Counted from the first letter of the stretch, positions 12,300-38,075 are shown. The stretch is DNA of 64,000 nucleotides from Candidatus Deferrimicrobiaceae bacterium (GCA_036504035.1 DASXVV010000009.1:248001-312000), one strand, 5' to 3'. Notes: generated from the sequence alone by a model not told the origin. Made by a program: numbers and translations.

Positions 12300-12794
12300 A
12301 TGAATTTGACTGACCGAGCCCGATGCGCCGCGACGGCCGGGTTCGCCTTTTTGGCCGTGGCGTTGGGAGCGACGCCTTCCACCCACGCCGCGCCGCAATC
12401 CGCCGCCGTTCCAGGCGCGAAGTCTGTGGCCGGGAAACCGGCTCCCGCCGACTACCGGGCCTTGCCGAAACCCGGCGCGCGCGTCACGCTCGACGCCGGG
12501 CATTACTTCACCTACGGTTTCACCAAGCCCGCCAAGATCGGCGTGGCGATCATGAGGGTCGAGATCTTCACGCGCGACGGGAAGCACGACACCTCGTTCG
12601 GCGTCAAGGGCGACGCGGACATGCCCTCGATGCGAGGCGCCCACACCATGGGCGACAAGGATTTCGCCCTGTCCAAAAAGGGCGACTACCTTTTGCCGAT
12701 CCCGCTGGTCATGCCGGGCGACTGGGAAGTCCGCCTCACATTCGTGAAGGACGGGAAGACGGTCCTGCGTGGCGCCTATCTCTTCGACCTTTAG
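12300..12794 (+). CDS. Secreted YtkA-like domain protein
   Basis: 164 residues from ATG 12300 (GGGAGAA six bases upstream; a TTG 18 bp earlier is less likely). A Sec signal peptide ends near THAAPQSA. The mature domain has the YtkA/FixH-like pattern DMPSMRGAHTM ... LPIPLVMPGDWEVRLTF, an immunoglobulin-like sandwich seen in periplasmic proteins linked to copper and haem-oxidase assembly. First gene of a six-gene plus-strand cluster; its end overlaps the next gene by 26 bp. Confidence 0.7.
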   Translation: MNLTDRARCAATAGFAFLAVALGATPSTHAAPQSAAVPGAKSVAGKPAPADYRALPKPGARVTLDAGHYFTYGFTKPAKIGVAIMRVEIFTRDGKHDTSFGVKGDADMPSMRGAHTMGDKDFALSKKGDYLLPIPLVMPGDWEVRLTFVKDGKTVLRGAYLFDL

Positions 12795-13788
12795 AAAGGC
12801 CTATCTCGGCATCGTTGCCCTGTTCCTGGGGTTGTCGGCAACGGCGCGCGCCGACAGCCACCTTCTCTACTTCGAAGCGCAAGGGGTCGCGGGCTACTCG
12901 ACGCTCGAGGACAAACCGGTCTTCAACTCGATGAACCCGGACGCGGAAATGCAGCGTTCCAGCGTCGGATTCGATTACCTTCACCGCTTCTCCGGCGAAG
13001 GCGGCGATTTCGGATCCCTCGGCATCCAGGGCCGGCTCGCCTACAACCGTAACGCAGAGGGAGAGAACGATCCCCGCGTCGAACCCCAGCTCTACAACGC
13101 CTGGTTCAAGCTTAAGACGCCCTGGACCGACGCCTGGATCGGCCACAACCGGCCGGCATTCGGGCTCGGCTCCTACTTCGACAGTCACCCCCTCCTCCTG
13201 CGCACGCTGCCCATCCAGGGGTTCGGCTACGACCGCGATTGGGGCGTCGGCACATACCGCGACTTCTCCCGGGGCAACCTTCAGCTCAGCGCCACGACCG
13301 GGACGGGCATGCCGCTCGAGGCCAAGGGCAACTACATGCTCGCCGGGCGGATTTCCTACGGGGTGCTGGCCGAGGATAATTTCTCCGCGGGCCTTTCCCT
13401 GGCCCTCGGCCGCACGCTCGACACGATGGGATACAAGGTGCGAAACGCCGACCCTGCCATGATGCGGCTGGCCGGCGCCGATCTCGCCCTGCTCCGCAAC
13501 CGGTTCGAGCACCGCTTCGACCTGCTCGCGGGCAAATGGCTTGGGGCCGACACCGTCGCCGCGATGTACCGGCTGGGTATCCTGCTCGACGCCGAGGGGA
13601 GGATGAAGCTCGAGGCGCAGCCCACCTGGTGGCGCGTCGACGGCGAGGGCGGCGAGAACCTTTTGCTGTCCGCCTGCTTCACCGGCCTCGTCACCTCCGA
13701 CCTGGCGTCCCGCACGATGTACGAATACGATCGCGATCGCGGCGATCATCGTATCGTCACGCAAATCTATCTCTACAAGCCGATGTAG
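12769..13788 (+). CDS. Outer-membrane beta-barrel protein
   Basis: 339 residues from GTG 12769-12771, the only start that keeps the signal peptide KAYLGIVALFLGLSATARA. The mature part has alternating aromatic/polar strands (HLLYFEAQGVAGYS, LGIQGRLAYN, RISYGVL, RTMYEYDRD) and ends in a hydrophobic strand (IVTQIYLYKPM), consistent with an outer-membrane barrel. No family assignment. It starts inside the YtkA-like gene, so the two are probably translationally coupled. Confidence 0.65.
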   Translation: MAPISSTFRKAYLGIVALFLGLSATARADSHLLYFEAQGVAGYSTLEDKPVFNSMNPDAEMQRSSVGFDYLHRFSGEGGDFGSLGIQGRLAYNRNAEGENDPRVEPQLYNAWFKLKTPWTDAWIGHNRPAFGLGSYFDSHPLLLRTLPIQGFGYDRDWGVGTYRDFSRGNLQLSATTGTGMPLEAKGNYMLAGRISYGVLAEDNFSAGLSLALGRTLDTMGYKVRNADPAMMRLAGADLALLRNRFEHRFDLLAGKWLGADTVAAMYRLGILLDAEGRMKLEAQPTWWRVDGEGGENLLLSACFTGLVTSDLASRTMYEYDRDRGDHRIVTQIYLYKPM

Positions 13789-13811
13789 GCCATCACGCCC
13801 CCGGAGCATCC

Positions 13812-14483
13812 ATGAAGACTGCCCGCGAACCGATGATCCGCCGCCGAAAGGCAATCCGGCATTTCCTCGCCTCCCTGGTCGCACTGATCGCTGCACTGGC
13901 GGCCACGGCGTCCTTCGGCGCCGTCGGCTGCGACCTGAACGACCCGGACCGCGACGTCGCCCGCCTATTCCCCGATTCGAGCGGGTACCGGACCTCCTAC
14001 GTCTCCATCGACAAGCGGGGCGGCGAACCGATGCTCCGCCGGATCGAGAAACGTCTGGGCGACCGGTTCCACGGCATCTACGAGACGATCGACGTCCCCT
14101 ACACGATCTACGACATCTACAGCGGGAAGAAGAAGGTCGGTTACATCCACGGCGTCAACCAGAAGGGGCAGTTCGGCGGCATCCAGGTGTTCGTCGCGCT
14201 CGACCTCGACGGGAAGATCAAGTCGTTCTACATCCAGAAGATGACCAGCGAATGGGCGAAGAAGCTGCGCGATCCGAAATTCGGCAAGCAGTTTACCGGC
14301 ATGTCGCTCGCCGACCTCGATGCGTACGACCCGGTTACCGGCCACGGGAACGGGAAGATCGCCGGGGTCAGGAATCCGGCGCCCGAGGCCGAAGCCGATT
14401 ACCGCGCCGCGCTGCGCGCCCTCAAGAAGAATCTCATCCTCATGGACGAATTCGTCCTCGCTGCGGAACGGAGCCGGAAATGA
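13812..14483 (+). CDS. Exported FMN-binding-like domain protein
   Basis: 223 residues from ATG 13812 with GGAG five bases upstream. A membrane-spanning signal (HFLASLVALIAALAATASFG) is followed by a domain whose KKKVGYIHGVNQKGQFGGI and VFVALDLDGKIKSFYI resemble FMN_bind domains of NqrC/RnfG proteins. The usual S/T-G-A-T flavinylation motif is not visible near the C-terminus, so covalent FMN binding is doubtful. Its stop overlaps the permease start (ATGA), tying it to the ABC transporter. Confidence 0.55.
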   Translation: MKTAREPMIRRRKAIRHFLASLVALIAALAATASFGAVGCDLNDPDRDVARLFPDSSGYRTSYVSIDKRGGEPMLRRIEKRLGDRFHGIYETIDVPYTIYDIYSGKKKVGYIHGVNQKGQFGGIQVFVALDLDGKIKSFYIQKMTSEWAKKLRDPKFGKQFTGMSLADLDAYDPVTGHGNGKIAGVRNPAPEAEADYRAALRALKKNLILMDEFVLAAERSRK

Positions 14484-15664
14484 TCACCCGATTCGGAATC
14501 GCCTCGAAGAACCTGCTCCGGAAAAAATCCCGGACGCTGCTTACCATGGTCGGGATCATGCTCTCCGCCTGGGTGCTCGTCAGTCTTCTCGGCTTCAACC
14601 GGGGCTACGAGATCGCCCTCAACCGCGACATCGAGAACATGGGCTACCAGCTCATGGTCATGGCCAAGGGGTGCCCTTACGAGGCGGCCACGATGATGCT
14701 GCAGGGCGGGAAGGGGCTTCGCTACATGCCCCAGACCATGGTCGACAACATCACGCGGGAACCCGAGGTCGAAAGCGTCACGCCCATCCTGATGCAGGCG
14801 TTCTTCGACCCGAACAAGGGCGAGAGCGGGGGGATCGCCGGCTACTTCGGCGTTGACCCCGCCACCTATCCGGGGATGAAGCCGTTCTTCCGATTTCGTC
14901 AGGGTGGCTGGTTCAAGGACGGAAACTCCGACGAGGCGGTCATGGGGTTCGAGGCGGCCGAACTTGAGCAGCGCGAGGTGGGCGACATGACGCTCGTCCC
15001 CGAGAAGAACGTCAAGCTCAAGATCGTCGGGATCCTCGAACGGACGGGAAGCCAGGACGACGGCACGACCTTCGTCCCGCTGAAGACGCTGCAGCGGATC
15101 GCCGGGACCGACAAGATCACCACGATCGGCATCAAGATCAAAAAGAACGCCGACATGGCCGCGCTCGAGAACCGGCTCTACCAGCTGCCCGACGTCCAGG
15201 TGGTCAGCTTCAGCCAGGTCAAGCAGACCATCATGAAACTCATCTCCACGGCCCGGGTCATGGTCCTTTCGATCGCGGTCGTCGCCATTCTCATCGCCAT
15301 GGTCGGCGTGGCCAACACGGTCCTCATGTCCGTGCTGGAGCGAAAGCAGGAGATCGGCATCCTCAAGACGATGGGGGCGATGCCTTCCGACGTGTTCCGG
15401 CTGGTCTGGACCGAGACGCTGATCCTGTGCGCGGGAGGCGGGCTGGCCGGCATCGGGATGGCCTTCGCCTTCGCGCACGTGACGGACCTCCTCGTGCGGC
15501 GGATCCTCCCTTATGCCCCGAGCGGCGGGCTGGTGTCGATCGATCCTGCGCTGGCGTGCCTGTCGTTCGGCATCATCCTGCTCGTGGGGCTTTTGAGCGG
15601 CCTGTACCCGGCATGGCAAGCCGGGCGCGTCCGCCCACTCGAATCGATCCGGGGAGAGGGGTGA
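14480..15664 (+). CDS. ABC transporter permease, FtsX/MacB type
   Basis: 394 residues. One N-terminal membrane helix (LLTMVGIMLSAWVLVSLLGF, about 20-40), a large periplasmic domain (about 45-260), then three C-terminal helices (VMVLSIAVVAILIAMVGVAN, an ILCAGGGLAGIGMAFAFA region, and CLSFGIILLVGLLSGLYP). LERKQEIGILKTMGAMPSDV is the typical MacB/LolCE cytoplasmic coupling segment. Such permeases are mechanotransmitters acting on periplasmic substrates rather than classic transmembrane carriers. ATGA overlap with the preceding gene; the ATPase partner follows immediately. Confidence 0.88.
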   Translation: MITRFGIASKNLLRKKSRTLLTMVGIMLSAWVLVSLLGFNRGYEIALNRDIENMGYQLMVMAKGCPYEAATMMLQGGKGLRYMPQTMVDNITREPEVESVTPILMQAFFDPNKGESGGIAGYFGVDPATYPGMKPFFRFRQGGWFKDGNSDEAVMGFEAAELEQREVGDMTLVPEKNVKLKIVGILERTGSQDDGTTFVPLKTLQRIAGTDKITTIGIKIKKNADMAALENRLYQLPDVQVVSFSQVKQTIMKLISTARVMVLSIAVVAILIAMVGVANTVLMSVLERKQEIGILKTMGAMPSDVFRLVWTETLILCAGGGLAGIGMAFAFAHVTDLLVRRILPYAPSGGLVSIDPALACLSFGIILLVGLLSGLYPAWQAGRVRPLESIRGEG

Positions 15665-15669
15665 CCGGC

Positions 15670-16371
15670 ATGGAACAGCGAACCAGCAATCACTCGTCGC
15701 TCGAAGCGCGGGAGCTGACTCGCGTCTACCGGCGCGGCAGCGAGGAGATCCGGGCGCTCGACGGCGTTTCGCTCAAGATCGAGCGAGGCGATTTCGTCTC
15801 GTTCATGGGCCCCTCCGGCTCGGGGAAAACCACCCTCGTCAACCTGCTCGGCTGTCTCGACAATCCCACGTCGGGAGAGCTGTCCCTCGCCGGGCGCCCG
15901 ATCTTCGGAACGGGCAAGCCGCTCGGCGAACGGGAGCTGACGAAAGTCCGACGGGAGCTGTTCGGCTACATCTTTCAGAATTTCTACCTGATTCCCACCC
16001 TGACGGTGCGCGAAAACGTGTCGCTGCCGCTCGCCTTCTACCGAAGGCCCGGAGTCGAGGGGGAAATGGAACGGCTGCTCGAAATGCTCGGGATGAGCCA
16101 CCGGATGAATCACCTCCCGGGGCAGATCTCCGGGGGCGAGATGCAGCGGGTCGCCATCGCGCGCGCGCTCGTCAACCGGCCCGAGATCCTGTTGGCCGAC
16201 GAGCCGACCGGCAACCTCGACAGCCAGCGGTCCGGCGAGATCGGCGAAGTGCTCCAGGAACTGAACGGACGGACGGGGCTGACGATCATCATGGTTACGC
16301 ACAATGCCGAGCTCGGAATGCTCGGCAAAAGGCGGATCGAGATGCGCGACGGTCACGCCCACGAGATTTAA
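15670..16371 (+). CDS. ABC transporter ATP-binding protein, MacB/LolD type
   Basis: 233 residues. Walker [11 protein letters not shown]-loop [15 protein letters not shown], signature [15 protein letters not shown], Walker [14 protein letters not shown] and H-loop VTHN are all present, typical of the MacB/LolD/FtsE subfamily. I start at ATG 15670, about eight bases after GGGGAGAGGGG; a GTG at 15661 is too close to that site. Energises the permease encoded just upstream. Confidence 0.92.
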
Positions 16372-16406
16372 ATAATTACACGATGCCGCTCCAGGAGGAA
16401 TCTACT

Positions 16407-16871
16407 TTGACGAAACCGATCCGCACCCTGTTCCTTTTCCCGTTCCTGAGTCTTGTCCTCGCAGCAACCGCAATGGCGTCCTCCCCGGTGGAACCGCCGC
16501 AAAAGTGCGAACAGTGCGGGATGGACCGAGAACGGTTCGCCTACAGCCGGATGATCGTCGAGTATGCCGACGGCAGCAAAGCCGGCGTCTGCAGCATCCA
16601 CTGCGCCGCTGCGGACATGGCAAAGGGGGCGGGCAAGGCGGTCAAGACGCTACGGGTCGCCGATTACAACACCCGTGAGATCCTGGACGCGAATATCGCC
16701 ACGTGGGTCGTCGGGGGAAAGGCGAAGGGCGTCATGACCGGCGTCCCCAAGTGGGCGTTCGCCGACCGGAAAGAGGCGCTGACCTTCGTCAAGGCCTTCG
16801 GCGGCAAGGTGACGCCCTTCAAGAAGGTGTTTGCGGCGTCGAAGGCCGAAGTGGCCGAGTGGGGCCGTTAA
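16407..16871 (+). CDS. NosL-like metal-binding protein
   Basis: 154 residues starting at TTG 16407-16409; AGGAGGAA at 16393-16400 is ideally placed for it, while the ATG at 16383 lies upstream of that site. After a signal peptide (LFLFPFLSLVLAATAMA) comes KCEQCGMDRERFAYSRM and VCSIHCAAADMA, the Cys/Met arrangement of NosL proteins, which bind Cu(I) and support nitrous-oxide reductase maturation or other copper delivery. No nos genes are in the window. Last gene of the envelope cluster, overlapping the convergent thioredoxin-like gene by 4 bp. Confidence 0.82.
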   Translation: MTKPIRTLFLFPFLSLVLAATAMASSPVEPPQKCEQCGMDRERFAYSRMIVEYADGSKAGVCSIHCAAADMAKGAGKAVKTLRVADYNTREILDANIATWVVGGKAKGVMTGVPKWAFADRKEALTFVKAFGGKVTPFKKVFAASKAEVAEWGR

Positions 16872-17821
16872 TCGCCTTTCGGCAGGAACCGCGTCAGCGC
16901 CTCCTTGAGCGCCCCTTCCGCCTCCGGCTTCACCGCGCCGGATGCATCGACGAGCGCAGACGGATCGAAGCCGGCCAGCTTCCGCTCGTGCTCATCCCGA
17001 AGCCCCCGCTTCGCGAGTTCGCGCAGCATTTCGTCACGCCTTCCGAACGCCTTCGCCTCGTTCAGGACAATCGCCTTGAGCAACAGCGGATCCAGGTAGT
17101 CCGAATCCCGGCGGAGTGCCTCGTCCAGCTTCTCGACCGCGTTCTCGGGAACCACGGGCAGAAGTCCCCGGGACGTGCGGGCCAGCAGGAACAGCCGCTT
17201 GCCCAGGTTGAAATACTGGAGCGCATGGTTCTTCGGCGTGTGCGCCAGAAGATACTCGGTCGCCTCCGGCCGCTTCGGCGGGGGAATCCCGAGGAAGGCG
17301 TCGAGAAGCGCGGGAATCTCGTCGCGGGCCACCGAAGGGAATCCCGGGTACGACGCGGCTATCCGAAGCGAGTTGTCCACCACCAGGATCGTCGGCACGC
17401 TGATGATGCCGATCTCGTTGTAACCCTTGAGCCCCGGGTCGATGACGACGGGGAAGGCGACTCCGGCCGCCCCGGCGGTCGACTTGACCAGGGCGACGGC
17501 GTCGGCGGACATCTCCGCATGATCGGCATCGATCGCAAGGAAACGGAGCCCCGACTTCTCGTACCGCGCCCGTGATTTTTCAATGAACCCCAGCAATTCG
17601 GCCGACCGCTCACTCCAGGTCGCCCAATAGACGACGACGAGCCCCTTCTCTCCGGAAAAGGAGGAAAGCTTTCCCCCGGCGCCCGTTACGCCCGAGAGTT
17701 CGATATCGGTCAGGCGTGCCCCATTCTCCGTCCCCCGTAATGCAAACGCCGTATTGAATATTGACGATACGATCAGGAAGGCTGCGAGTATGGCCCAAAA
17801 GATCCATTTTCCCTGGCGCAT
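16868..17821 (-). CDS. TlpA/thioredoxin-like protein lacking the CXXC motif
   Basis: 317 residues from ATG 17819-17821 with AAGGGAGG four bases upstream (a GTG 15 bp earlier would overlap that site). A signal anchor (WIFWAILAAFLIVSSIFNTAFA) is followed by a thioredoxin-like domain: VVVYWATWSERSAELLGF occupies the active-site position, with S-E-R-S replacing C-x-x-C, and the cis-proline loop ISVPTILVVD is retained. The C-terminal 130 residues are helical, possibly TPR-like. It cannot do dithiol chemistry; a binding or scaffold role is inferred. It lies 18 bp downstream of the NYN gene. Confidence 0.75.
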   Translation of the reverse strand: MRQGKWIFWAILAAFLIVSSIFNTAFALRGTENGARLTDIELSGVTGAGGKLSSFSGEKGLVVVYWATWSERSAELLGFIEKSRARYEKSGLRFLAIDADHAEMSADAVALVKSTAGAAGVAFPVVIDPGLKGYNEIGIISVPTILVVDNSLRIAASYPGFPSVARDEIPALLDAFLGIPPPKRPEATEYLLAHTPKNHALQYFNLGKRLFLLARTSRGLLPVVPENAVEKLDEALRRDSDYLDPLLLKAIVLNEAKAFGRRDEMLRELAKRGLRDEHERKLAGFDPSALVDASGAVKPEAEGALKEALTRFLPKGD

Positions 17822-17839: not shown

Positions 17840-19282
17840 TCAGCGGTCCGGGCGACGAATCATCAGGAGATGATACAGGTGCCGGGAGCCGATCACGGCG
17901 TGTACTGCCGGGCAACGGTCGATCAGGCCCGCATCGTCCGTCGCCAGGATGCAGCTCCCCTTCCGCTCGCGGGCGACCCGGTCGGCGATCCAGTCGTCGG
18001 CCAGTTCGTTTCCTTTGTGGGTGAACACCACAGTCAGGCCGAAGGCTGCCGGCTCTTCGCGATCCTCCACTCCGTCGTAGACGGCAAAGACCCGTGCGAA
18101 AGACGACGCCATCCGTTCGAGCGCAAAGTTCAGCTGGACCCGTTTCCCGGCGAAATCGGGAATCACCCCGCCGTCGCCGATCGTCGGCTCGTTCGTGATC
18201 AGCAGGTTGTTCCCGTCGACCAGCAGCGTGTAGCGCGATGCGCCGCCCTCCCGGAGCAGCGATTCGAACGTCTCCTCACGCAGCCCCACGCGACCGGTCG
18301 ACCGGATCGTCTCCGACCGGATCACTCGCCGCACCTTTCCCTCGATCGCGCGACGGAGCCGCTCGTGGCCGGCGGCGTCGACGAGGCCTGCTTCGGCCAG
18401 CGTCGCCGCGACGGCGGTAAACCGTTCGAGCAGCGGCAGGGCCGCCTTGCCGTCGGGCAACTCCCCGATCGGGCGAAGAAGCAAGGGGACGGCCTCGGGA
18501 TCCGGCGGAGCCAGGAGCGCAGCGCACGCGGGGTCGGAAAGCATCCTGGCCCGGCGCGTCTCCAGCGCACGGATGGCGGCGGCCAGCTCGGGGACCGCCT
18601 TCAGGGAATCGCGCCCGGCGAACCGCAGCTCGCCCAGCAATCTTCCGATCCGGTCGTGTTCCTCGCGAAGGGCGCGGACCGTTCCGTAACGGGCGTTGAC
18701 GGCCGCCTGACGGTCGAGCGCCCGAGTGGCCAGCGCGATCGCATCGGCGTTGTCGATCCGCGCCCTATCGACGGCATCCCGCCCCTCGGGGCTCTCGAAG
18801 TCGAGACCAATCTCCCGGCGCCAGCGCTCGAACAGCTCCCGCGCAACTTCTTCGCTGCGCGCCCGCTCCCCGGCAAGCTCCCGCTCGGCCGCCTCCTGCC
18901 CGCGGACCGCCTTCTGCAGATCGGACTTCAGTGCCTTGCGATCCTTCCGCGCGCGATCGAGCGCCTCCTCGATGACGGCCATGTCGGCGCGAAGTCGTGC
19001 GGCCTGCTTGTCCTGGCGGCCTGGCCGGTGGGGAGCGGATGAGGCGGCTTCCGCCGAATCGGACTCGGCGGCCGACGGTTCTTCCGGGATTTCGGATTTC
19101 GTTCCCGCGACCTGCTTCAGCGCGGTCAAGAGATCGCCCCGGCCTTCGACCCGTCCCGGCAGCCCGGGCTTTCCGGGATGCGTCGGGATCGCCAGCGTCC
19201 CCACCGCCTTTCCAGGGGCGTGATCGGCGACTACGGCTTCGATCGTCGCCTCGAGATCGGGGGAGGGTGCTTTCTTCTTCAC
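17840..19282 (-). CDS. Coiled-coil protein with C-terminal NYN (PIN-like RNase) domain
   Basis: 480 residues. The N-terminal 90 are disordered; 95-160 form a coiled coil (RKDRKALKSDLQKAVRGQEA); the middle is helical and unassigned. From about 345, YTLLVDGNNLLITNEP, VFAVYDGVED, VVFTHKGNELADDWIADR and SCILATDDAGLIDRC match the NYN/YacP PIN-like fold with its acidic residues, so ribonuclease activity is plausible. Its start overlaps the preceding stop by 4 bp; it is the last member of an overlapping chain beginning with the U32 gene. Confidence 0.75.
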   Translation of the reverse strand: MKKKAPSPDLEATIEAVVADHAPGKAVGTLAIPTHPGKPGLPGRVEGRGDLLTALKQVAGTKSEIPEEPSAAESDSAEAASSAPHRPGRQDKQAARLRADMAVIEEALDRARKDRKALKSDLQKAVRGQEAAERELAGERARSEEVARELFERWRREIGLDFESPEGRDAVDRARIDNADAIALATRALDRQAAVNARYGTVRALREEHDRIGRLLGELRFAGRDSLKAVPELAAAIRALETRRARMLSDPACAALLAPPDPEAVPLLLRPIGELPDGKAALPLLERFTAVAATLAEAGLVDAAGHERLRRAIEGKVRRVIRSETIRSTGRVGLREETFESLLREGGASRYTLLVDGNNLLITNEPTIGDGGVIPDFAGKRVQLNFALERMASSFARVFAVYDGVEDREEPAAFGLTVVFTHKGNELADDWIADRVARERKGSCILATDDAGLIDRCPAVHAVIGSRHLYHLLMIRRPDR

Positions 19283-20676
19283 CGGGCTTCGCCTCCCGCA
19301 TGCATCCCCTCGGGCAGCGCTTCAATCATGAAGATCGCGGGGAAATGGTTGGCCCTGAATTCCGTCTTCGCCCGGTCGTGCCGCGCCTGCAACTGTGCGA
19401 GCCGATCGAGCGCCTCCTCCCGCGACTCCCGGAGCGACTCCCGCCCGGACTTCGCCTTCGCAATCCTCAGGTCGATCTTCCGGACTCCGGACAGCAGCGA
19501 GGCCATCTCCCGGTCGATCGGCGCAAGCTCGCCCATCATCCGCTCGTAGTCGTCGAAGGCGCCTTCCAGCTTCCTGATCACGTCGTCGACCGCCGCGACA
19601 AGCCCCTCGGGCGGGGAGGAACCCCCGCCGCCCTTCCGACTGCGAAGGGACCTGATGAGCCGATCCCGGAGCGGGCCGGTTCCTTTTTCCCCCCGGCAGA
19701 TCTCGCCGTAAAGACTGATGGCCTTCCAGAACGCCTGCGGCGTCAGGAAGTCGGATTCTTTCCGGACGCGACCGAGCGCCATCAGCACGACGGTCTCCAT
19801 CCAGCCTTCCTGGACGGAGGTGCGATCCAGGCCCGAGGGAAATGCGTCGTGACGGACCGGCCAGCGGCGAAGCGTCGCGATCCGATCCCGGCACGCCTCG
19901 AGCTCCGGGCCGAGATCGAGCCAGTTGCTCCAGCGCCGGGGAAGTCCTTGAACGCTCCCCCCGGAACGGATCGAAAGCGCGCGGATGGCGCGCCGGGCGA
20001 ATTCGAAATCGGAATCGGGAATCCACGTGACCGGCCGCTTGAGCAGGTTGTAGCGCTCGAGCGCGGCCAGCCGCCCTTCGAGCCGCGCCCGATGCCGTGT
20101 CGCCCCGTTGATGAGACGGACGAAGAAAAGGGCGGCGGGACGACCGAGGAATGGGCCGATCTCGCCGACGGCGGCGTGGTCTACCGTCCCCCGGGAAGCG
20201 GCAGCCCGACGAGGGGGAGGCGCGACCGCCTTTCCGGCCATAATCTCCTTCCAGACAGGAACGGAGGGGGGATCGTCCGGACGGAAACCGAGCTGGACGG
20301 CGCGTTCGACCGCCGTGACCACCGTCCTGACGAAGGCCGCGGCAGCCGCGCGTGCGTCGATGTACCCGACCGAAAGCCCGGCGTTGATCAACGTATCGAC
20401 CCTTTTCGCGATGGCGACCACTTCATCGGACGTCTCGACGGTCCGCCCTTCTTTCCTGGCGAAGTCGAGGATCACGATCAACAACCCGTTGGCGACCGCC
20501 TCCTCGACCGGAAACTCGTGCCAGAAACCGACAGGACTCCCGCCCTGCGAAACGTTCGGCCGGTCCAGGTGGAGCGACAGCAGCTCCAGGAGCTGGCCGA
20601 ACTGGGAGTGGGACGCCAGCGTCGCAGGCCGTTTCGCCGGAAGGTGTCCTGCCGTTTTCGCCGGGCGCCGGATCAA
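19279..20676 (-). CDS. Hypothetical protein
   Basis: 465 residues, not recognised. The N-terminal half is mixed alpha/beta with no visible catalytic motif; the C-terminal 100 residues are strongly helical and likely coiled coil (ESLRESREEALDRLAQLQAR). No signal peptide or membrane span, so cytoplasmic. Overlaps both neighbours by 4 bp, implying coupled translation. Confidence 0.7.
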   Translation of the reverse strand: MIRRPAKTAGHLPAKRPATLASHSQFGQLLELLSLHLDRPNVSQGGSPVGFWHEFPVEEAVANGLLIVILDFARKEGRTVETSDEVVAIAKRVDTLINAGLSVGYIDARAAAAAFVRTVVTAVERAVQLGFRPDDPPSVPVWKEIMAGKAVAPPPRRAAASRGTVDHAAVGEIGPFLGRPAALFFVRLINGATRHRARLEGRLAALERYNLLKRPVTWIPDSDFEFARRAIRALSIRSGGSVQGLPRRWSNWLDLGPELEACRDRIATLRRWPVRHDAFPSGLDRTSVQEGWMETVVLMALGRVRKESDFLTPQAFWKAISLYGEICRGEKGTGPLRDRLIRSLRSRKGGGGSSPPEGLVAAVDDVIRKLEGAFDDYERMMGELAPIDREMASLLSGVRKIDLRIAKAKSGRESLRESREEALDRLAQLQARHDRAKTEFRANHFPAIFMIEALPEGMHAGGEAR

Positions 20677-21536
20677 TAAAGATCCCCCGACTCGTCGTCG
20701 ATGTCGAAATCCTCCTCGCCTTCACCGTCGAGGTCGAGCCCGAGTTCTTCTTCACCCGACAACGCCTCGGCTGCGGTCGCCGGCGGTTCCCCATCGTAGA
20801 GGATCGCATCCTCGACGGTCTCCAGCGCGAATTCCCCTTGTCGATACGCCTCGATCAGGTCCTGAAGCTCGAAGAACATGTCCAGCGGGAAAGACCGGTC
20901 GGGGCCGAAGGCGGATTCGTCGATGCCGAAATACGCGAACCGGGCGACCGGGATCGGCTCGGTGGCATCCTCGGGATCGATGTCGATCAAGGGATGGTTC
21001 TCGGCTGCCCAGATGGCGATGAGGAGCCATTCCTTGAACGTGAAGCGGTTGATGGCGCCCTGGAGGATCTCGGAATAATCCGGGCGCTCCTTGAGACGGT
21101 AAGCCCACGACAGGATGATTGGATGAAAAGGGCGACGGTCGTCGTCGGGCTTGCGCGCATCCATCGCCAGGGCAGCCCGGATCGCCCCCAGGACGTTTTC
21201 GACGTTCGCCACGTACGCGCCCATCGAAAAGCCACCGTCGAGATGGCCGAGAAGCTCGTTGATCCGGTGTTGCGTCAGGTTGTCGGCCAGCACGTCGCCG
21301 GGATTTTCCTTGTCGGCAATCTCGCCGAGGATGATATCGAGCGCCTGTGCCGCCCGGCCGGTTTCGAGACCGATCAGGTCATAGTTCTGGAGCAGCGCGA
21401 TGGCGGTCGAGGGATCGTCGTGGACCGGGGCCAGCGCTTTCTTGCTGATGATGTCGTCGTAGATCGTCTTGACGTCGCCCTGCCCGTAGGAAGCGGCGAA
21501 CCGCGTCGCCAGCTTGTTGAAGGAATCCTGGTCCAT
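20673..21536 (-). CDS. Hypothetical acidic protein
   Basis: 287 residues starting MDQDSFNKLATRFAASYG. ATG 21534-21536 shares a base with the upstream stop (TGATG). No recognised family. The body is helical with aromatic patches (FTFKEWLLIAIWAAENHP); the C-terminal 40 residues are extremely acidic (EEELGLDLDGEGEEDFD), suggesting a protein-interaction tail or nucleic-acid mimicry. Cytoplasmic by appearance. Overlaps the next gene by ATGA. Confidence 0.7.
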   Translation of the reverse strand: MDQDSFNKLATRFAASYGQGDVKTIYDDIISKKALAPVHDDPSTAIALLQNYDLIGLETGRAAQALDIILGEIADKENPGDVLADNLTQHRINELLGHLDGGFSMGAYVANVENVLGAIRAALAMDARKPDDDRRPFHPIILSWAYRLKERPDYSEILQGAINRFTFKEWLLIAIWAAENHPLIDIDPEDATEPIPVARFAYFGIDESAFGPDRSFPLDMFFELQDLIEAYRQGEFALETVEDAILYDGEPPATAAEALSGEEELGLDLDGEGEEDFDIDDESGDLY

Positions 21537-21937
21537 CAGTGACCCCGGACCCGTGTCCCGTACATGTACCCGCTGATGTCGGGCGAGCTGGTCGCCCACG
21601 ACAGGTACCCGTGGATCTTCTTGAGATAATCGGCGCCCCTTGGGACCACGGCGATCCTTTCGAGAAGTTCAGCCATACCCGACCCGTGCCGGCATGCGAG
21701 CACCTGCTTGCCCCCCAGTTGCACGAGATCGGCGCCCGCCGCCGTTCCGACCCGGGTGCATCCGGAGATGATCGCCGCGAAATCGTACGGCTCCATCAGA
21801 TCGACGATCTGCTCGCCCGTCAATGCCAGCATTTGCGCCGCCGTGTCGTTCCTGGAGTCGACCGTGATGCCGATCTCCCCGTCTTCACGGACATAGGCGC
21901 GGACCGCCTCCAGAAATTCATCGTACTCATGCTCCAT
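21536..21937 (-). CDS. Small hypothetical protein
   Basis: 133 residues, unrecognised. Compact soluble protein beginning MEHEYDEFLEAVRAYVREDG, with one C-terminal aromatic stretch (YLKKIHGYLSWATSS). Overlaps the J-domain gene by 11 bp and touches the next gene through TGATG, so its co-translation with the chain is well supported although its role is unknown. Confidence 0.65.
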   Translation of the reverse strand: MEHEYDEFLEAVRAYVREDGEIGITVDSRNDTAAQMLALTGEQIVDLMEPYDFAAIISGCTRVGTAAGADLVQLGGKQVLACRHGSGMAELLERIAVVPRGADYLKKIHGYLSWATSSPDISGYMYGTRVRGH

Positions 21938-22436
21938 GCGTCGTTCCCCCCTCGATGATCATCAACCACAACGTCCCCGGCTCTCCGCCGTTCTTCCCCG
22001 GCTCGCCCAGCCCCTCGAGCTCGTACCAGGCGACCTTTTGCCCTTCGGGTTGAATGCCGACCCGCACCGGCGAAACCCTTCCAACCCCCGTCGGAACCGG
22101 CTTGCGCGCGCTCGCGGCCTGCACCCACGTCTTCCCTGCCCGCGGTGCGTTCCGGGCGGTCGGGAGCACGGACCGCAACAGGCGCTTGCCGACCCGCTTC
22201 CGTTCGAACAGCTCGGCGACCGAATCGACATGCCCAAATTCGAGCTCGAACCGCTTGCGACGCTCGGGATGCGTCAGGATCCGGTAAGCCTCGGTCGCCG
22301 CATGGAAAAGCGCCTCGCTCTCCGGGTTCCCCTGGCTACGGTCGGGGTGGCACATGAGCGCAATCTTGCGATAGGCTGCCCGGATTTCCGGTTCGCTCGC
22401 ATCCTCCGCGACGCCGAGCAAGGCATACAGGTTCAT
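21927..22436 (-). CDS. J-domain (DnaJ-like) protein
   Basis: 169 residues. Residues 1-70 form a J domain: LYALLGVAEDASEPEIRAAY, the HPD triad at 30-32 (MCHPDRS), then AYRILTHPERRKRFE. No glycine/phenylalanine region or zinc finger follows, so it is a specialised co-chaperone that could recruit DnaK to a partner. The C-terminal 100 residues are unassigned. Start ATG 22434-22436 overlaps the U32 stop (ATGA). Confidence 0.88.
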   Translation of the reverse strand: MNLYALLGVAEDASEPEIRAAYRKIALMCHPDRSQGNPESEALFHAATEAYRILTHPERRKRFELEFGHVDSVAELFERKRVGKRLLRSVLPTARNAPRAGKTWVQAASARKPVPTGVGRVSPVRVGIQPEGQKVAWYELEGLGEPGKNGGEPGTLWLMIIEGGTTHGA

Positions 22437-24814
22437 CCGCCCGCCTTCCGCTCGAAATTGAACGACGAGGCGCCGGGAACCGGCTCCCCTTCCCGCGCGG
22501 CCCGCAGCATGGGCTCGCGCTCCCCGGTCGGAACCCCCGCCAGCTCGGCGACGAATCCCCGGCAACCGGCGGCCCGGAGCCGATCGCGATACCCCGTCAC
22601 CGAGAACGGCACACCGGGACGAAGCACCGTCAGCCCGTCCTCGGTCGATAGCCGACCGCCTCCTCCCGGCTCGATCGATACCCCGTCGTCCCCCGCGCTG
22701 CGGGAAACCGGAATTCGGGACACCATCAGCGCGGGCCTGCCGGCCAGCGTCACCCAGGGCACGATCGGAAGATCCGCGCCCAGAAGGAGGGCCAGATTCT
22801 CTCCGTCGTCCTCGGGCGACAGGACTGCGGCCGAGGCCCCCTGGTCGTGTAGGGCGCGCAATGCGGCGCTGTTCATCGCGCCCAGCCGCCAGCCGGCGAG
22901 GATGCGGACATCGCGCCCTTGCAACAGCGGAAAATGGGCGGGGTTGTTCGCTTCGAAATGGCGGAATCCCCGGCCAATAAGTCGATCGATCATTTCCGCG
23001 ACCGCCGCGGTGTCCTCGCCCGCGAGCCAGAAAGGAAGCCGCCAGACGATCCGGTTGCGGTCGGGGTCGATGCGATCGGACGCGGAGTCGAGATCTTCCC
23101 GAAGGACGCCTCGCCCGATCGGGACCAGGAAGCCGGCAACTCCGGAAGGGTCGAGTGACGCGATGTCTTCGATGGCCCCGACGCCCACCCATAGTTCGGA
23201 AGGCGCTCCCGTGGCCGCACGCGGGGTGGTCCGAAAAGCGTTCCGGGCGGCTTCGTCGACCTCCTTCCGGTTCCGGGCATGGCGATCTGTCGCCTCGCTT
23301 CCGAATGCGGCGTAGAAGGACCGACGGATTTCCTTGATCCGCGAGGGAGGAATGAAGCGGTCGCCCAGCTGTGACGCCTCGAAGCCCGAAAGCGCGAACG
23401 GCGTTCCGCCAGTCTCCGCAAAACGCGCACGCAACGCCTCGGAGCCATTTCCGTCCCTCGCCGCCGCCAGCGTCCCGACCGCGAATTCCTTTCCGAAGGA
23501 GAAATCGTCGGTGGTCCCCAGAATGGAAAGGGTCTCTCCTTGCAGCGACAACGCCAGGTTGCACGAGATACGATCCGACGGGACCGCGGCAAGCCTGCGA
23601 AGGCAGGCGGCCTCGCTTGCCATCCCGGATGCACCGTCTGCGACCTTGTACACGGTGTCGCCTATGGCGAATCGGAACGGGGCCGAGATGGCCACCTGAG
23701 TGCCCGGCTGCGCTACGGTCCCCCCGCCGCCCTTGGTCTCGATTCTCCGCACGGTGAAGGTTCGCCCCTCGCGTCCGGTGGCGGGCTGGACGCGCAAACG
23801 GTCGCCGGCATGGAGCCGCTGGGTGGTCACGAAGCGAATGCCTTCCCGCCCGACGGCCTCGACACGGCCGATCTCCTCCCCGACCGCGCCTTCGCGCACA
23901 GGGTCGGTCAGGTCGTCCGGCTTCCCTTCGACCAGAAAGCCGGACGTGCCGGTCCGCCCCCGCGCACCCGTCAGGAGCGATCTTGCATCCGACACCGCCG
24001 CATCGTATCGGTCGAACGGCGCATCGATCAGCCGCCGGTAAGCGGACACGGAGGCCGCGACGTAACCGGCCGGCTTCATCCGCCCCTCGATCTTGATGGA
24101 GGCGACCCCGGCGTCGGCCAGCGACCGGACCGCCTCGATCCCCCAGAGGTCGCGCGTCGAAAAGGGATATTCCCCCGCCCCGTCGAACCTGTAGGAGCGT
24201 CGGCACGGCTGGGCGCAATCGCCCCGATTGCCGCTGCGTCCGCCGAGGAACGACGAAAAGAGACACTGGCCCGAGATGCAGAAGCACAGGGCGCCATGGA
24301 CAAACGTCTCGATCTCGATTGGCGATTCTGCAGCGATGGCGCGGATCTCGGGAAGCGTGAGCTCGCGCGCCAGAACTACGCGTCGGAACCCGAGCGTAGC
24401 CAGTTGCCGGACGCCGGACAGGGTGTGGACGGTCATCTGCGTCGATGCATGAAGCGCGAGCGACGGAAAATGCGCGCGTGCGATCCGCGCCAGCCCCTGG
24501 TCCTGGACGATCACCGCATCGACGCCCGCGTCGGCCAGCATCGAGAGGATTTCCACGATCTTGGGAAGCTCATGCTCCTTGAGCAGCGTGTTGAGCGTGA
24601 CGTACAGCCGGCGTCCCTCCCTGCGGCACAGGGAAGCCATCCGCGAGAGATCGTCGGGTGTGAAATTCCGGGCGCGGGAACGCGCTGAGAAATCGTGCAG
24701 GCCGGCGTAGACGGCGTCGGCGCCGTTCTCGATCGCGGCAAAGAAGGCCTCGACCGACCCTGCCGGCGCGAGAAGTTCCGGTTTTATTCCGATTCGGTGG
24801 ACCAATGAAGTCAT
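22433..24814 (-). CDS. U32 family peptidase/RNA-hydroxylase-like protein
   Basis: 793 residues. The N-terminal 300 are a U32 domain: PELLAPAGSVEAFFAAIENG, LYVTLNTLLKEHELP, and the cysteine-rich signature FVHGALCFCISGQCLFS followed by RGDCAQPCR. The long C-terminal half fits the DUF3656-containing U32 proteins, the subfamily of E. coli RlhA (23S rRNA C2501 hydroxylation). The RNA-modification role is by family analogy. First gene of the overlapping chain running down to the NYN nuclease-like gene. Confidence 0.85.
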   Translation of the reverse strand: MTSLVHRIGIKPELLAPAGSVEAFFAAIENGADAVYAGLHDFSARSRARNFTPDDLSRMASLCRREGRRLYVTLNTLLKEHELPKIVEILSMLADAGVDAVIVQDQGLARIARAHFPSLALHASTQMTVHTLSGVRQLATLGFRRVVLARELTLPEIRAIAAESPIEIETFVHGALCFCISGQCLFSSFLGGRSGNRGDCAQPCRRSYRFDGAGEYPFSTRDLWGIEAVRSLADAGVASIKIEGRMKPAGYVAASVSAYRRLIDAPFDRYDAAVSDARSLLTGARGRTGTSGFLVEGKPDDLTDPVREGAVGEEIGRVEAVGREGIRFVTTQRLHAGDRLRVQPATGREGRTFTVRRIETKGGGGTVAQPGTQVAISAPFRFAIGDTVYKVADGASGMASEAACLRRLAAVPSDRISCNLALSLQGETLSILGTTDDFSFGKEFAVGTLAAARDGNGSEALRARFAETGGTPFALSGFEASQLGDRFIPPSRIKEIRRSFYAAFGSEATDRHARNRKEVDEAARNAFRTTPRAATGAPSELWVGVGAIEDIASLDPSGVAGFLVPIGRGVLREDLDSASDRIDPDRNRIVWRLPFWLAGEDTAAVAEMIDRLIGRGFRHFEANNPAHFPLLQGRDVRILAGWRLGAMNSAALRALHDQGASAAVLSPEDDGENLALLLGADLPIVPWVTLAGRPALMVSRIPVSRSAGDDGVSIEPGGGGRLSTEDGLTVLRPGVPFSVTGYRDRLRAAGCRGFVAELAGVPTGEREPMLRAAREGEPVPGASSFNFERKAGG

Positions 24815-24868: not shown

Positions 24869-26215
24869 TTATTCGTCCTTTTCGAGGATGCCCGCGGGCA
24901 GGATGCCCGTCCGGCCGAACTTCTCCTGAATCTTGTCGACGGTCCGGTTGAGCGCGTCCCGCCGTTCGGGCGAGGATGGAATTGTGCCCCGGCCGGTCGT
25001 CTCCCCTGTTACGGCTGCCTTCCCGCCCGGGGGAGCGAACAACGAGAGTTGGACTGCCCTTCCCCGGAGGTTTCCTTCCGCGAACAGAGCTGTGCCACGA
25101 TCGGGCTCTCCCGCTTTCTCGACGACGACGTCGTCCGGCGTTTCGGGCATCGCGAGCGCCTCCTCCCCCGACATGTTCGACAGGGATATCCCCAGCAGGC
25201 GCACCGGGCGGCTCCCGGCTTCGGTCTTGTCGAGCAGGCGACGGGCGATGCGGTAGATCGTTCCGCCGTCGTCGGTCGGCTGCTGGAGCGATTCGGCGCG
25301 GGTCACCTGCTCGAAGTCGGCATATTTCACCTTGAGGGTGACCGTCCTGCCCCGGAATCCGTGGCGACGCATCCGCGACGCGACCCGGTGTGAGAGGTCG
25401 AGCAGTTGCCGCTCCATGGTCTTGCGGCCGCGGATATCCTGCTCATAGGTGTCCTCGTGCCCGATCGATTTCACCTCGTTCCCGGTCTCGACCTCCCGCT
25501 CGTCGATTCCGTTCGCGAGCGCGCGCAGCTGCGCCCCATGGCTCCCAAGTTTCCCGACCAGCGTGTCTACCGGAATCGCCGCGAGATCTCCGATCGTGCG
25601 GATGCCCATCCGCTGCAGGAGGCTTTCCGTGACCTTCCCCACCCCCCACAGCCGGCCCACCGGCAACGGCGCGAGGAACGCCACCTCGGCCCCGGGCGGG
25701 ACGACCACGAGGCCGTCGGGCTTTTCGAGATCGGAGGCGATTTTCGCGACGTGCTTCGAGGAAGCAACCCCCGCGGACACGGTCAGGCCGGTTTCGGTGC
25801 GCACCGCGTCCTTGATCGCCCGCGCGATCTCGATGGGGGTGCCGAACAGCCGTTCGCAGCCGGTGACGTCGAGGAAGGCCTCGTCGACCGATAGCGGCTC
25901 GACCAGCGGGGTATACCGGTGGAAGATGGCGAAGACCTGCCGGGAGACCTCCCGATAACGCGCCATGCGGACCGGGAGAAAGATCCCCTTCGGGCAAAGG
26001 CGATGCGCGGCCGACATCGGCTGCGCCGACCGGACGCCGAACTTTCGCGCCTCGTAGGACGCGGCGCACACGACCCCGCGCCGTTCGCTTCCCCCGACGA
26101 TCACCGGCTTCCCCGCGAGCGTCGGGTCGTCCCGGACCTCGACCGAGGCATAGAAGGCGTCCATGTCGAGATGGAGGATCGCGCGCGGACGGGCCGTCCG
26201 GGATTCGTTCATCAT
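24869..26215 (-). CDS. dinB: DNA polymerase IV (Y-family)
   Basis: 448 residues. Catalytic blocks LHLDMDAFYASVEV and PLSVDEAFLDVTG carry the metal-binding D, D and E residues; helix-hairpin-helix region IRTIGDLAAIPVDTL and little-finger domain follow. A beta-clamp motif QLSLF occurs before a roughly 60-residue C-terminal tail. Error-prone translesion polymerase. Start taken as ATG 26213-26215, which overlaps the lipB stop within ATGATG; the second ATG is equally possible. It is the distal gene of the dehydrogenase-lipB operon; no LexA-like box was noticed immediately upstream. Confidence 0.93.
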   Translation of the reverse strand: MMNESRTARPRAILHLDMDAFYASVEVRDDPTLAGKPVIVGGSERRGVVCAASYEARKFGVRSAQPMSAAHRLCPKGIFLPVRMARYREVSRQVFAIFHRYTPLVEPLSVDEAFLDVTGCERLFGTPIEIARAIKDAVRTETGLTVSAGVASSKHVAKIASDLEKPDGLVVVPPGAEVAFLAPLPVGRLWGVGKVTESLLQRMGIRTIGDLAAIPVDTLVGKLGSHGAQLRALANGIDEREVETGNEVKSIGHEDTYEQDIRGRKTMERQLLDLSHRVASRMRRHGFRGRTVTLKVKYADFEQVTRAESLQQPTDDGGTIYRIARRLLDKTEAGSRPVRLLGISLSNMSGEEALAMPETPDDVVVEKAGEPDRGTALFAEGNLRGRAVQLSLFAPPGGKAAVTGETTGRGTIPSSPERRDALNRTVDKIQEKFGRTGILPAGILEKDE

Positions 26216-35037: not shown

Positions 35038-35484
35038 TCAGTCCCTGAACGCCGACCCGATCACCCAGGCGTAAAGCACCACCGACACCGCCTCGATCGC
35101 GCCGAACAGGACGGCGATTCGGTCGAGGCCATACCCGACAGGCATCAACGCCCCCGCGAGCATCCCCGCCAGCCCGACATTGGCCAGCACGAACTGCCCC
35201 TGCGCCCAGCCCGCATGGATAGCCCCCGGGCGACCGAATCGCCCGGGAATCAGCATCAGGCCGAACGCGTAGAAGGCGAATAGAGCCCCCCCGACAAGCA
35301 GCATGTGGGTGTGGACGAACTGGAAGTTGTCGTTTCCCCACGCCAGCATTCCCAGCCCGAGCAGGGACCCCAGCGACAGGTAGAACAGCGAGACGCGGAG
35401 GTAGCGGCGGGCAACCCGCAAAACCGGGTCGCTCGCCGCCCCCCCGCCCAAACCGCCTTTCGGCAATTCCCCGCCTTCGCTCAC
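35038..35484 (-). CDS. Small four-helix membrane protein, haem-copper-oxidase-subunit-I-like
   Basis: 148 residues from GTG 35482-35484, overlapping the RNase stop as GTGA. Four hydrophobic spans (VSLFYLSLGSLLGLGMLAWG; MLLVGGALFAFYAFGLML; FVLANVGLAGMLAGALMPV; VLFGAIEAVSVVLYAWVIG). FVHTHMLLVGGALFAFY resembles the haem-ligand helix of short cbb3/NorB-related proteins. It is far shorter than an oxidase subunit, so haem binding is a guess. Translationally coupled to rne/rng. Confidence 0.65.
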   Translation of the reverse strand: MSEGGELPKGGLGGGAASDPVLRVARRYLRVSLFYLSLGSLLGLGMLAWGNDNFQFVHTHMLLVGGALFAFYAFGLMLIPGRFGRPGAIHAGWAQGQFVLANVGLAGMLAGALMPVGYGLDRIAVLFGAIEAVSVVLYAWVIGSAFRD

Positions 35485-38075
35485 GCCACCGGCGCCGGTC
35501 CGATATGGAAGCCGCCCACAGGCAGCGAAGGATCGGCCAGGAACGAGACGCGCGTGTTGCACAGCCGTTCGAGGCGGGTAATCTCGTCCCGCTTCTGGTT
35601 GAGCAGCGTCTCGAGAAGCGCCGGATTGAGACGCGCCAGCACCTCTTTGACGCCCTCGCGCGACATCTCGTCGTGCAGCTTGCGAAGAAGTCGAACCGCC
35701 ATCGCATCGGGAGTCAGGACGAACCCGGTGCCTGCGCACAGGTCGCAATCCTTGAGCATCACGTCGAAGAAGGAGATGCCCATCCGCTGGCGGCTGATCG
35801 CGACCAGGCCGAACTTCCCCATCGCGGAGACGTCGTTCTTGGCCTTGTCCTTCCGGAGGCCATCCTTGATGGTGCGTTCGACTTCCTTGATGTGGTTCTT
35901 GTTCTCCATGTCGATGAAGTCGACGACGATGAGGCCGCCCATGTCCCGGATGCGGAGCTGCCGCGTGACCTCTTCCGCCGCTTCCTTGTTGGTGCGGAAA
36001 GCGGTGTCTTCGATATCCCGGTCCTTGCTGGAGCGGCCCGAGTTGACGTCGATGCTCCAGAGCGCCTCGGTCTTGTCGATCACGATATGGCCGCCGGAAG
36101 GAAGTCCGACACGGCGCGAGGTGGCCTTGTCGAGCTGCTCGTCGAGGTTGAACTTGCTGAAGAGCGGCCGCTTCTGGCGGTAGAGTTTCAACTTGTTCTT
36201 CTGCTTCGGGTAGTAGATGTCGAAGAACTCGACCGCCTTGCGGTGCGAATCCTCGGAATTCATGATCACTTCGGCGAAGTCGGACGAATAGTTGTCGCGC
36301 AGGGTGCGGATAACGATGTCCTGCTCTTCGTAGAGCAGCGCCGGCGCCTTGAGACTCTTCCCGCCGTCGAGCACCCGGTGCCACAACCGGATGAGGTTTT
36401 CGAGATCGGCCTTGAGGTCCTTGAGGTTGCGCCCCTCTCCCTCGGTGCGGACGATGAAGCCCAGGTGATCGGGGTACTCGAGCTTTTCCATCTGCTTGCG
36501 CAGCCGCTCGCGCTCCTTCTCGCCCGTGATCTTCTTCGAGATGCCGAACCGCTTCATGCCGAGCATCATGACGAGGTATCGGCCCGCGATGCTGATGTAG
36601 GAGGTGAGCGCCGCCCCCTTGACGGAGGACTCCTCCTTGGTGACCTGTACGAGGATCTCCATCCCGGAGCGAAGCGGCGGCCGCTTTTCGTCCTCGTCCC
36701 AGTTGTCCAGGTTCTCGGTAAGCGCCCCGCCGCAATACTCGTTAAGCGGCAGGAAGCCGTGCCGCCCCCCGCCGAACTCGACGAACGCGGCCTCGATCGC
36801 CGGGGCGATATTGATGACCTTCCCCTTGTAGATGTTCCCCTTGAACTGCTTGCGGCGCTGGTTCTCGAACTCGAAGTAGTCGAGGATGTTGTCGTTGACG
36901 ATCGCCACCCGGATCTCCTCGGGGTGCGTGCCGTCGATCATCATGACCCGGCGCGAATCGCTGCTTGCCGACGTGTCGGTGTATTCGATGTCGCCGTCGA
37001 GGTCGTCGTCCTCGGTCTCGGCGCCTTCGACCGACGCGGCTTCCGCGGCCTCGACCGTGGAAAGCCCTTCTTCGGCCGCCTCGGGTTCAGGCCCGGCTGC
37101 GCCTTCCCCACCCCGGCCCCGGCGGCGGCGAGAGCCGCGACGCTTCCGCCCCGCGCCTTCCCTCGGCGATTCCTCCGCGGTGGGTTCCTTCGCGACGACG
37201 GGTGCCTCGGTGGCAGCGACGACCTCGGGATGGCCCCCCTCTTCCCCGTGGAGTTCCTCTTCCTCGTCTTCCTCGTGCGGAGCGGCGCTCGGTGCGAGCG
37301 GCATTCCGTCCGGCCCCTTGCCCCGGCGATTCCGACGGCGGCGCCGACGCCGGCGGCGCTTGATTGCGCCCTCGACCGGCACGCCGGGTTCGCCCGGCAA
37401 TTCGGAGAGCGGCGCACCGGGCTGCGCCTCGACCGTCGAAAGCTCGCCGGCATTTTGGGGCGCCTCGGCGAACGACGCGGCCTCCGCGGCAGCGGCGGTC
37501 ACCGCCTCCCCCGCGTCCACTTGGCCCGGCTGGCCGGTCCCGCGGCCCTTCCCGCCACGGCGGGAGCGGCGGCGCCGGGGGCGTCCGCCGACCGAGCCAT
37601 CCTCGGGAGACGGCACGCCACCTTCGGCGACTTCAGGCGCGGCCGGCTCGGAGGGCGGCGGCGTCATGACGGGCGTCGGCTTCGCCGCGGGCGAAGACGT
37701 TACGACGATCTCGACCGCCGCGGACTGTGCCGATGCGAAGGGAGCTTCGGCCGCGCCCTCTTTGGGTGCGACCTTCCTGGTCGTGCGGCGCGGCTTGCGC
37801 GCCTTCGGGGCGGTCGCCGCTTCGCTATCGGCGGCGGGGGCGGTCGCCGGCACGGAAGTCGCCGAAACGGTCGCTTCGGCCGTCTCGACCGGAGTCTTCT
37901 TGACGGTGCGTCGAGCCCTTTTCTTGGGAGCCTCGGCCGCAGCGGACGGATCGGACCCGACGGATTCGGCGACCGGCGGGTTGGCCGTCGCGGCATCGGG
38001 CTGCGCCGACGCGGTGTCTTCCTTCTTGCGCCGGGGGGCCCGGCGGGTCGTGCCCTTGGGATTGCTTTCGGTCAT
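35481..38075 (-). CDS. Ribonuclease E/G with long N-terminal extension
   Basis: 864 residues. The catalytic half starts near 375: RVMMIDGTHPEEIRVAIV, an S1 RNA-binding segment (NIYKGKVINIAPAIEAAFVE), the active-site aspartates in LWSIDVNSG and LIVVDFIDM, and a zinc-link cysteine pair CDLCAGTG. It is Rne/Rng family, endonuclease for rRNA/mRNA processing. Residues 1-375 are low-complexity Ala/Pro/Glu sequence with three arginine clusters (about 165-179, 238-254, 310-325). E. coli RNase E has its disordered scaffold at the C-terminus, so this is an inverted layout. AT-poor codon use matches neighbours. Confidence 0.9.
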   Translation of the reverse strand: MTESNPKGTTRRAPRRKKEDTASAQPDAATANPPVAESVGSDPSAAAEAPKKRARRTVKKTPVETAEATVSATSVPATAPAADSEAATAPKARKPRRTTRKVAPKEGAAEAPFASAQSAAVEIVVTSSPAAKPTPVMTPPPSEPAAPEVAEGGVPSPEDGSVGGRPRRRRSRRGGKGRGTGQPGQVDAGEAVTAAAAEAASFAEAPQNAGELSTVEAQPGAPLSELPGEPGVPVEGAIKRRRRRRRRRNRRGKGPDGMPLAPSAAPHEEDEEEELHGEEGGHPEVVAATEAPVVAKEPTAEESPREGAGRKRRGSRRRRGRGGEGAAGPEPEAAEEGLSTVEAAEAASVEGAETEDDDLDGDIEYTDTSASSDSRRVMMIDGTHPEEIRVAIVNDNILDYFEFENQRRKQFKGNIYKGKVINIAPAIEAAFVEFGGGRHGFLPLNEYCGGALTENLDNWDEDEKRPPLRSGMEILVQVTKEESSVKGAALTSYISIAGRYLVMMLGMKRFGISKKITGEKERERLRKQMEKLEYPDHLGFIVRTEGEGRNLKDLKADLENLIRLWHRVLDGGKSLKAPALLYEEQDIVIRTLRDNYSSDFAEVIMNSEDSHRKAVEFFDIYYPKQKNKLKLYRQKRPLFSKFNLDEQLDKATSRRVGLPSGGHIVIDKTEALWSIDVNSGRSSKDRDIEDTAFRTNKEAAEEVTRQLRIRDMGGLIVVDFIDMENKNHIKEVERTIKDGLRKDKAKNDVSAMGKFGLVAISRQRMGISFFDVMLKDCDLCAGTGFVLTPDAMAVRLLRKLHDEMSREGVKEVLARLNPALLETLLNQKRDEITRLERLCNTRVSFLADPSLPVGGFHIGPAPVA

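Follow-up and report, generated by a model that had tools for sequence, protein, structure and literature searches.

RlhA, the YdcP protein of E. coli, performs the prephenate-dependent hydroxylation of C2501 in 23S rRNA, while TrhP is involved in the hydroxylation of tRNA at U34. In both proteins the equivalents of the glutamate and the cysteines of the U32 motif were found to be essential for RNA hydroxylation (PMC6599085), and the same cysteine pattern recurs in the U32 families expected to bind a 4Fe-4S cluster (PMC6747719). UbiU and UbiV, which also possess a U32 domain, bind 4Fe-4S clusters and hydroxylate quinone precursors (PMC6747719). With regard to the YacP-type NYN nucleases, the rae1 gene of B. 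subtilis shares a transcript with yacO, which codes for a 23S rRNA methyltransferase, and the Rae1 protein cleaves at the ribosomal A site (PMC6613710). NYN nucleases rely on a cluster of aspartates (PMC11346440). No operon combining U32, J-domain and NYN genes was found described in the open-access literature, nor was any report found of a conserved unit in which an RNA-hydroxylase-type enzyme is joined by a Rae1-type nuclease and a dedicated co-chaperone.

Organization and conservation of the six-gene chain

The locus lies in a window of 64,000 nucleotides, which is the whole stretch of DNA analysed here, and consists of six ORFs on the minus strand running from 24814 to 17840 in the order U32, J, P3, P4, P5 and P6. 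The U32 and J genes overlap by 4 bp (22433-22436), J and P3 by 11 bp (21927-21937), P3 and P4 by 1 bp (21536), P4 and P5 by 4 bp (20673-20676), and P5 and P6 by 4 bp (19279-19282). The same six genes were returned by a codon-usage gene caller written for this analysis and trained on the genes of the window, three of the six chain genes among them. The chain proposed in the sequence-only reading, with its overlaps of 4, 11, 1, 4 and 4 bp, is thus confirmed by the ORFs, the gene caller and the sister species described below. The further step of that reading, in which the overlaps were taken to imply a complex, is not supported, as 9 of the 36 other same-strand neighbouring pairs in the window (25%, the chain excluded) overlap too. 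A single overlap is ordinary in this genome and makes weak evidence; the unusual features of the chain are the run of five successive overlaps, which has a probability of about 0.001 of arising at a given place, the number of possible places not being corrected for, and the preservation of this run. Neither a sigma-70 promoter detectable for the chain nor a terminator signal above shuffles was found at the locus, and the GC content of the chain resembles that of its neighbourhood.

The order of the six genes and all five overlap lengths are identical in G001 (L006:1204-8265) and match in G002 (L007) as far as its split contigs show. These two genomes represent two other species of the genus and are Deltaproteobacteria MAGs (records JANXQJ010000108.1 and JANXPS010000070.1). 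Identity between species is 58% for the U32 protein and 55% for P6 (both compared with G001 only), 66-68% for the J protein, 71-72% for P3, 72% for P4 and 55-56% for P5. The pN/pS values range from 0.18 to 0.52 across the six genes, with P3 and P4 having the lowest, and show constraint only, silent sites being near saturation. All six genes are under selective constraint.

On the upstream side the window contains a gene coding for a DinB-type DNA polymerase (24869..26215, minus strand), and in G001 and G002 a cysteine-synthase-like gene, absent from the window, is located between DinB and gene 1. On the downstream side, gene 6 is followed in G000 and G002 by a TlpA-like gene, which in the window codes for a TlpA/AhpC-like thioredoxin-fold protein (16868..17821, minus strand), and in G001 by a sensor-kinase-like reading frame. 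Since both flanks vary between the species and the six genes stay together, the six genes make up a discrete conserved unit. DinB and TlpA were considered as members of the unit and set aside, since the genes in these places are not the same in the other species.

The preservation of the unit bears on a rival explanation, which we regard as rather unlikely, namely that it is an operon of convenience in which an acquired U32 gene and a J/P3-P6 cluster are co-transcribed and act in unrelated processes. Such an arrangement would agree with overlaps being common in this genome. It agrees less well with the persistence of all six genes side by side, their overlaps identical, in three species (55-73% identity) in which both flanks changed; one would expect genes of unrelated function to have come apart in one or more of the three.

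The unit was found in three of the 26 genomes of its class, all from one genus, so that the neighbourhood is not limited to a single genome, although the three species in which the gene-order comparison recovered it belong to one genus only. No P5 was found in the 23 remaining genomes of its class, no P4 in 56 further relatives or in a 297-genome phylum sample outside the genus, matches judged to be due to chance aside, and no P3 in 116 further relatives beyond weak matches. A pattern-based scan of named GTDB genomes for P4 returned two sister MAGs only. The unit is present in every genome of the genus examined and nowhere else among the genomes searched.

Elsewhere in the window there are a defence-like gene coding for a protein with an Mrr-type restriction domain and an nSTAND3 NTPase domain (442-2724), a cluster of genes for an FtsX/MacB-type permease, an ABC ATPase and a NosL-like protein (12426-16871), the order of which is conserved in G002, and a gene for an RNase E/G family protein with an N-terminal extension of about 490 aa (35481-38075).

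The U32 protein and its relatives

Gene 1 (22433..24814, minus strand) codes for a U32-family protein of 793 aa, assigned by Pfam, motif scan and trees, which matches Peptidase_U32 at 7e-74 and DUF3656 at 1e-8. The motif E-x7-C-x6-C-x15-C-x3-C was found intact in the motif scan, and the glutamate and the four cysteines are present in the gene product: ETFVHGALCFCISGQCLFSSFLGGRSGNRGDCAQPC. An extra cysteine (ALCFC) inside the Fe-S motif is common to the chain U32 proteins and occurs in no other U32 protein of the motif scan.

RlhA of E. coli shares with the gene 1 product both Pfam domains and the motif of one glutamate and four cysteines, the two proteins being about 35% identical over the U32 part, while the C-terminal part is longer in the gene 1 product. 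In the trees, RlhA forms a very long separate branch, and the chain U32 groups with full-length relatives from other families of its phylum (39-45% identity, 98/98 support). The description of gene 1 as RlhA-like holds for its domain make-up, and an orthologue-type grouping with RlhA is not apparent in these trees. TrhP has the U32 domain and the motif in common with gene 1, and UbiU and UbiV have the domain; the gene 1 product falls below the NCBIfam equivalog cut-offs of all three, scoring 206.7 bits against 534 for TrhP, 169.1 against 440 for UbiU and 40.5 against 275 for UbiV.

The genus carries two U32 copies, the one in the chain and the usual U32 of the class, which adjoins an EF-G-like gene. 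At every locus examined (L055:3170-7688, L056-L060, L062, L063) this usual copy, of about 755-836 aa, is followed by the EF-G-like gene. A recent duplication of the fusA-linked class U32 as the source of the chain U32 was rejected by the tree, in which the two are separated by starred branches. The chain U32 is rather an acquired-looking second copy which, judging by the tree, belongs to a different, phylum-wide clade, and either horizontal gain or loss elsewhere in the class could account for its origin.

The U32 genes of the phylum-wide clade have no J or P3-P6 neighbours. Both this and the branching of the chain U32 with phylum-wide relatives, not with the class's own U32, lend some weight to the explanation by an operon of convenience, the U32 standing alone in its home clade and its position suggesting separate recruitment.

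In the same clade Hsp33 (hslO) is adjacent to the U32 gene in two loci (L100:5214-8617 and L103:8411-11621, with an overlap of 11 bp in L103) and close by in others (L099, L101, L106). A chaperone neighbour may be a recurring theme of this U32 clade, which is noted here without a statistical test.

The NYN protein, the J protein and the orphan products

Gene 6 (17840..19282, minus strand) codes for P6, a protein of 480 aa with a disordered and coiled-coil N-terminus, a helical middle part and a C-terminal YacP-type NYN domain (approximately residues 350-475). P6 alone gives no Pfam NYN match, being below the curated cut-off of PF05991, and the domain was recognised through relatives of about 600 aa in G182, G206 and G393, of which those tested (from G206 and G393) pass the cut-off of PF05991 (NYN_YacP). 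P6 aligns with the profile of this family with a probability of 99.8% in hhalign (E 7e-30), the profile including P6 matches the B. subtilis YacP structures 5mq8/5mq9 at 7e-6, and Asp356, Asp403, Asp429 and Asp450 are invariant in the alignment of P6 and its relatives. The assignment of the NYN domain to P6 is thereby secure at the level of sequence, and the last gene of the chain does appear to encode the NYN-nuclease-like protein proposed earlier, by way of the relatives and not by a Pfam match of P6 itself.

The long P6-type proteins were found in 19 of the 56 genomes of the class to which G206 belongs, along with five further short NYN-only matches. P6 is a short form of this apparently undescribed family, the members of which consist of a helical domain, a coiled coil and a YacP-type NYN domain: it aligns with them over about 370-400 residues, the NYN domain included, and lacks the extra N-terminal domain of about 200 aa that they carry. 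Unlike P6, they have no U32, J or P3-P5 neighbours. Their genes (loci L110:7887-9689, L140:6668-8461 and L143:1412-3172 among others) usually adjoin, divergently, a CutA-like gene. In one genus the long NYN gene is followed by QueC/QueF-like genes, and the G393 copy has a 4 bp overlap with a Dtd-like gene, all of these neighbours being named by sequence motif alone. The position of P6 relatives beside the Dtd-like and QueC/QueF-like genes, which are tRNA-related, would support a link to RNA. A family of coiled-coil NYN proteins, apparently undescribed and with some members encoded beside tRNA-modification genes, is thus brought to light in another class of the phylum.

In several genomes the long NYN gene is followed by one for a conserved cysteine-rich protein of about 200-235 aa, the two overlapping by 4 bp in one case (L140:5976-6671, L141:179-889, L142:7776-8486, L150:5794-6405 and L110:7157-7777). 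The L110 copy belongs to no Pfam family.

Gene 2 (21927..22436, minus strand) codes for a small protein of 169 aa, the J domain of which, suspected earlier, is established by a Pfam DnaJ match (9.5e-20, residues 2-63), with the HPD motif at residues 30-32. There is no zinc-finger or C-terminal DnaJ domain, and the tail, WYE...GEPGKNGGEPG.LWLMI in the alignment, is conserved between the species.

The products of the three genes in between had been called unrecognised, and indeed no relative of P3, P4 or P5 was confirmed outside the genus in the genomes searched. By sequence comparison, P3 (gene 3, 21536..21937, minus strand, 133 aa) is an orphan protein with two conserved cysteines, Cys60 and Cys82, and weakly resembles the N-terminal part of MetV-type proteins, with three orthologous matches at E 0.002-0.006 per genome and an hhalign probability of 74%. 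This likeness is kept as a weak lead. It bears, together with the substrate range of the U32 proteins, on an improbable alternative in which the unit is a small-molecule hydroxylation or Fe-S module, with the U32 protein and P3 acting on a metabolite, J, P4 and P5 serving in assembly or maturation, and the NYN protein regulating the mRNA of the unit. RNA is indeed not certain as the U32 substrate, given that UbiU and UbiV are hydroxylases of small molecules with a 4Fe-4S cluster. Nevertheless, gene 1 scores below the UbiU and UbiV cut-offs and has a DUF3656 domain like RlhA, and the MetV link is weak, concerns one protein family and involves a P3 without most of the MetV cysteines.

P4 (gene 4, 20673..21536, minus strand, 287 aa) is an orphan helical protein with a pI of 4.1 and a net charge of -39, and its very acidic C-terminal tail, pointed out in the sequence-only reading, is real and conserved. 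A P4 match in G018 was rejected because the ORF looks primase-like, as were matches in G226 and G268 (157-291), which fall in acidic, membrane-anchored TonB-like ORFs. P5 (gene 5, 19279..20676, minus strand, 465 aa) is an orphan basic protein with a pI of 10, a C-terminal coiled coil and a TTG start codon in all three species. AlphaFold2 models built on three-sequence alignments had a mean pLDDT of 39.7 for P4 and 48.8 for P5, too poor for a fold search. A comparison of P4 and P5 with the additional N-terminal domain carried by the long relatives of P6 led to the rejection of a correspondence. The acidic P4 and the basic P5 could bind each other, or RNA or ribosomes.

An RNase-like effector in the company of fast-evolving orphan proteins of narrow distribution might also suggest a system of defence or conflict whose effector would be the NYN RNase, sensed or held in check by the other proteins, especially as NYN nucleases occur in type III CRISPR systems (PMC11346440). 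This we consider very improbable. No PADLOC or PHROG family was matched above chance, the only PADLOC match of the unit being a weak one to the LeoA coiled coil (E 0.018); no relatives of P4 and P6 were found in plasmids and none of P3-P5 in viral contigs; the GC content is like that of the neighbourhood; and, unlike patchy defence genes, the unit has been retained by each of the three species of the genus and includes two strongly constrained members, P3 and P4.

A possible RNA-linked module and its comparison with known systems

The explanation that we favour, though only tentatively, is that the six genes are a single transcription unit, specific to a genus of Deltaproteobacteria-type bacteria, and encode a module for RNA- or ribosome-linked modification and quality control. 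The reading goes by analogy with rae1-yacO, the strongest precedent for a YacP nuclease paired with an RNA-modifying enzyme. The earlier observation that RNA-linked families stand at both ends of the co-oriented unit holds true, with the U32 hydroxylase motif at one end and the YacP-type NYN domain of P6 at the other. The suggestion of an RNA-modification or quality-control system built on it is supported as far as the conserved unit and its RNA-linked ends are concerned, and its functional part still goes by analogy.

In such a module a base in rRNA or tRNA would be hydroxylated by the U32-DUF3656 protein using an Fe-S cluster, in the manner of RlhA and TrhP, and P6, anchored by its coiled coil, would be a Rae1/YacP-type endoribonuclease whose target is RNA bound to ribosomes or selected in some other way. 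Hsp70 would be brought in by the mini J protein for the loading, assembly or release of the partners, and the acidic P4 and the basic coiled-coil P5 may serve as a scaffold or as RNA or ribosome adaptors. What we infer comprises the activity of the enzymes, RNA as the substrate, a physical complex, and what J, P3, P4 and P5 do. Against this it should be noted that the U32 and P6 families each occur elsewhere without the other partners, so neither needs this partnership, and that half of the unit (P3, P4 and P5) offers no hint of function.

If the RNA-linked module acts on ribosomes or tRNA, RNA hydroxylation would be linked to RNA turnover. A bolder proposal, for which the chances seem slim, is that the six products form one genus-specific ribosome- or tRNA-surveillance assembly, in which the hydroxylation of bases is coupled to the cleavage of RNA and which includes a co-chaperone of its own and three families unseen elsewhere. 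Were that the case, the phylum would harbour, in the wider coiled-coil NYN family, a class of RNA quality-control nucleases that has gone unrecognised.

RlhA is encoded without the operon partners that the chain U32 has. Minimal J proteins, the co-chaperones of class III/C, have an N-terminal J domain with HPD, as the gene 2 product does, which differs from them in its unique conserved C-terminal tail. Rae1/YacP of B. subtilis shares with P6 the YacP-type NYN domain and the conserved aspartates, and its gene, like the unit of P6, adjoins a gene of an rRNA-modification-type family; Rae1, however, is a single small domain (a 181-residue chain in 5mq8), to which P6 adds a coiled coil and a helical region.
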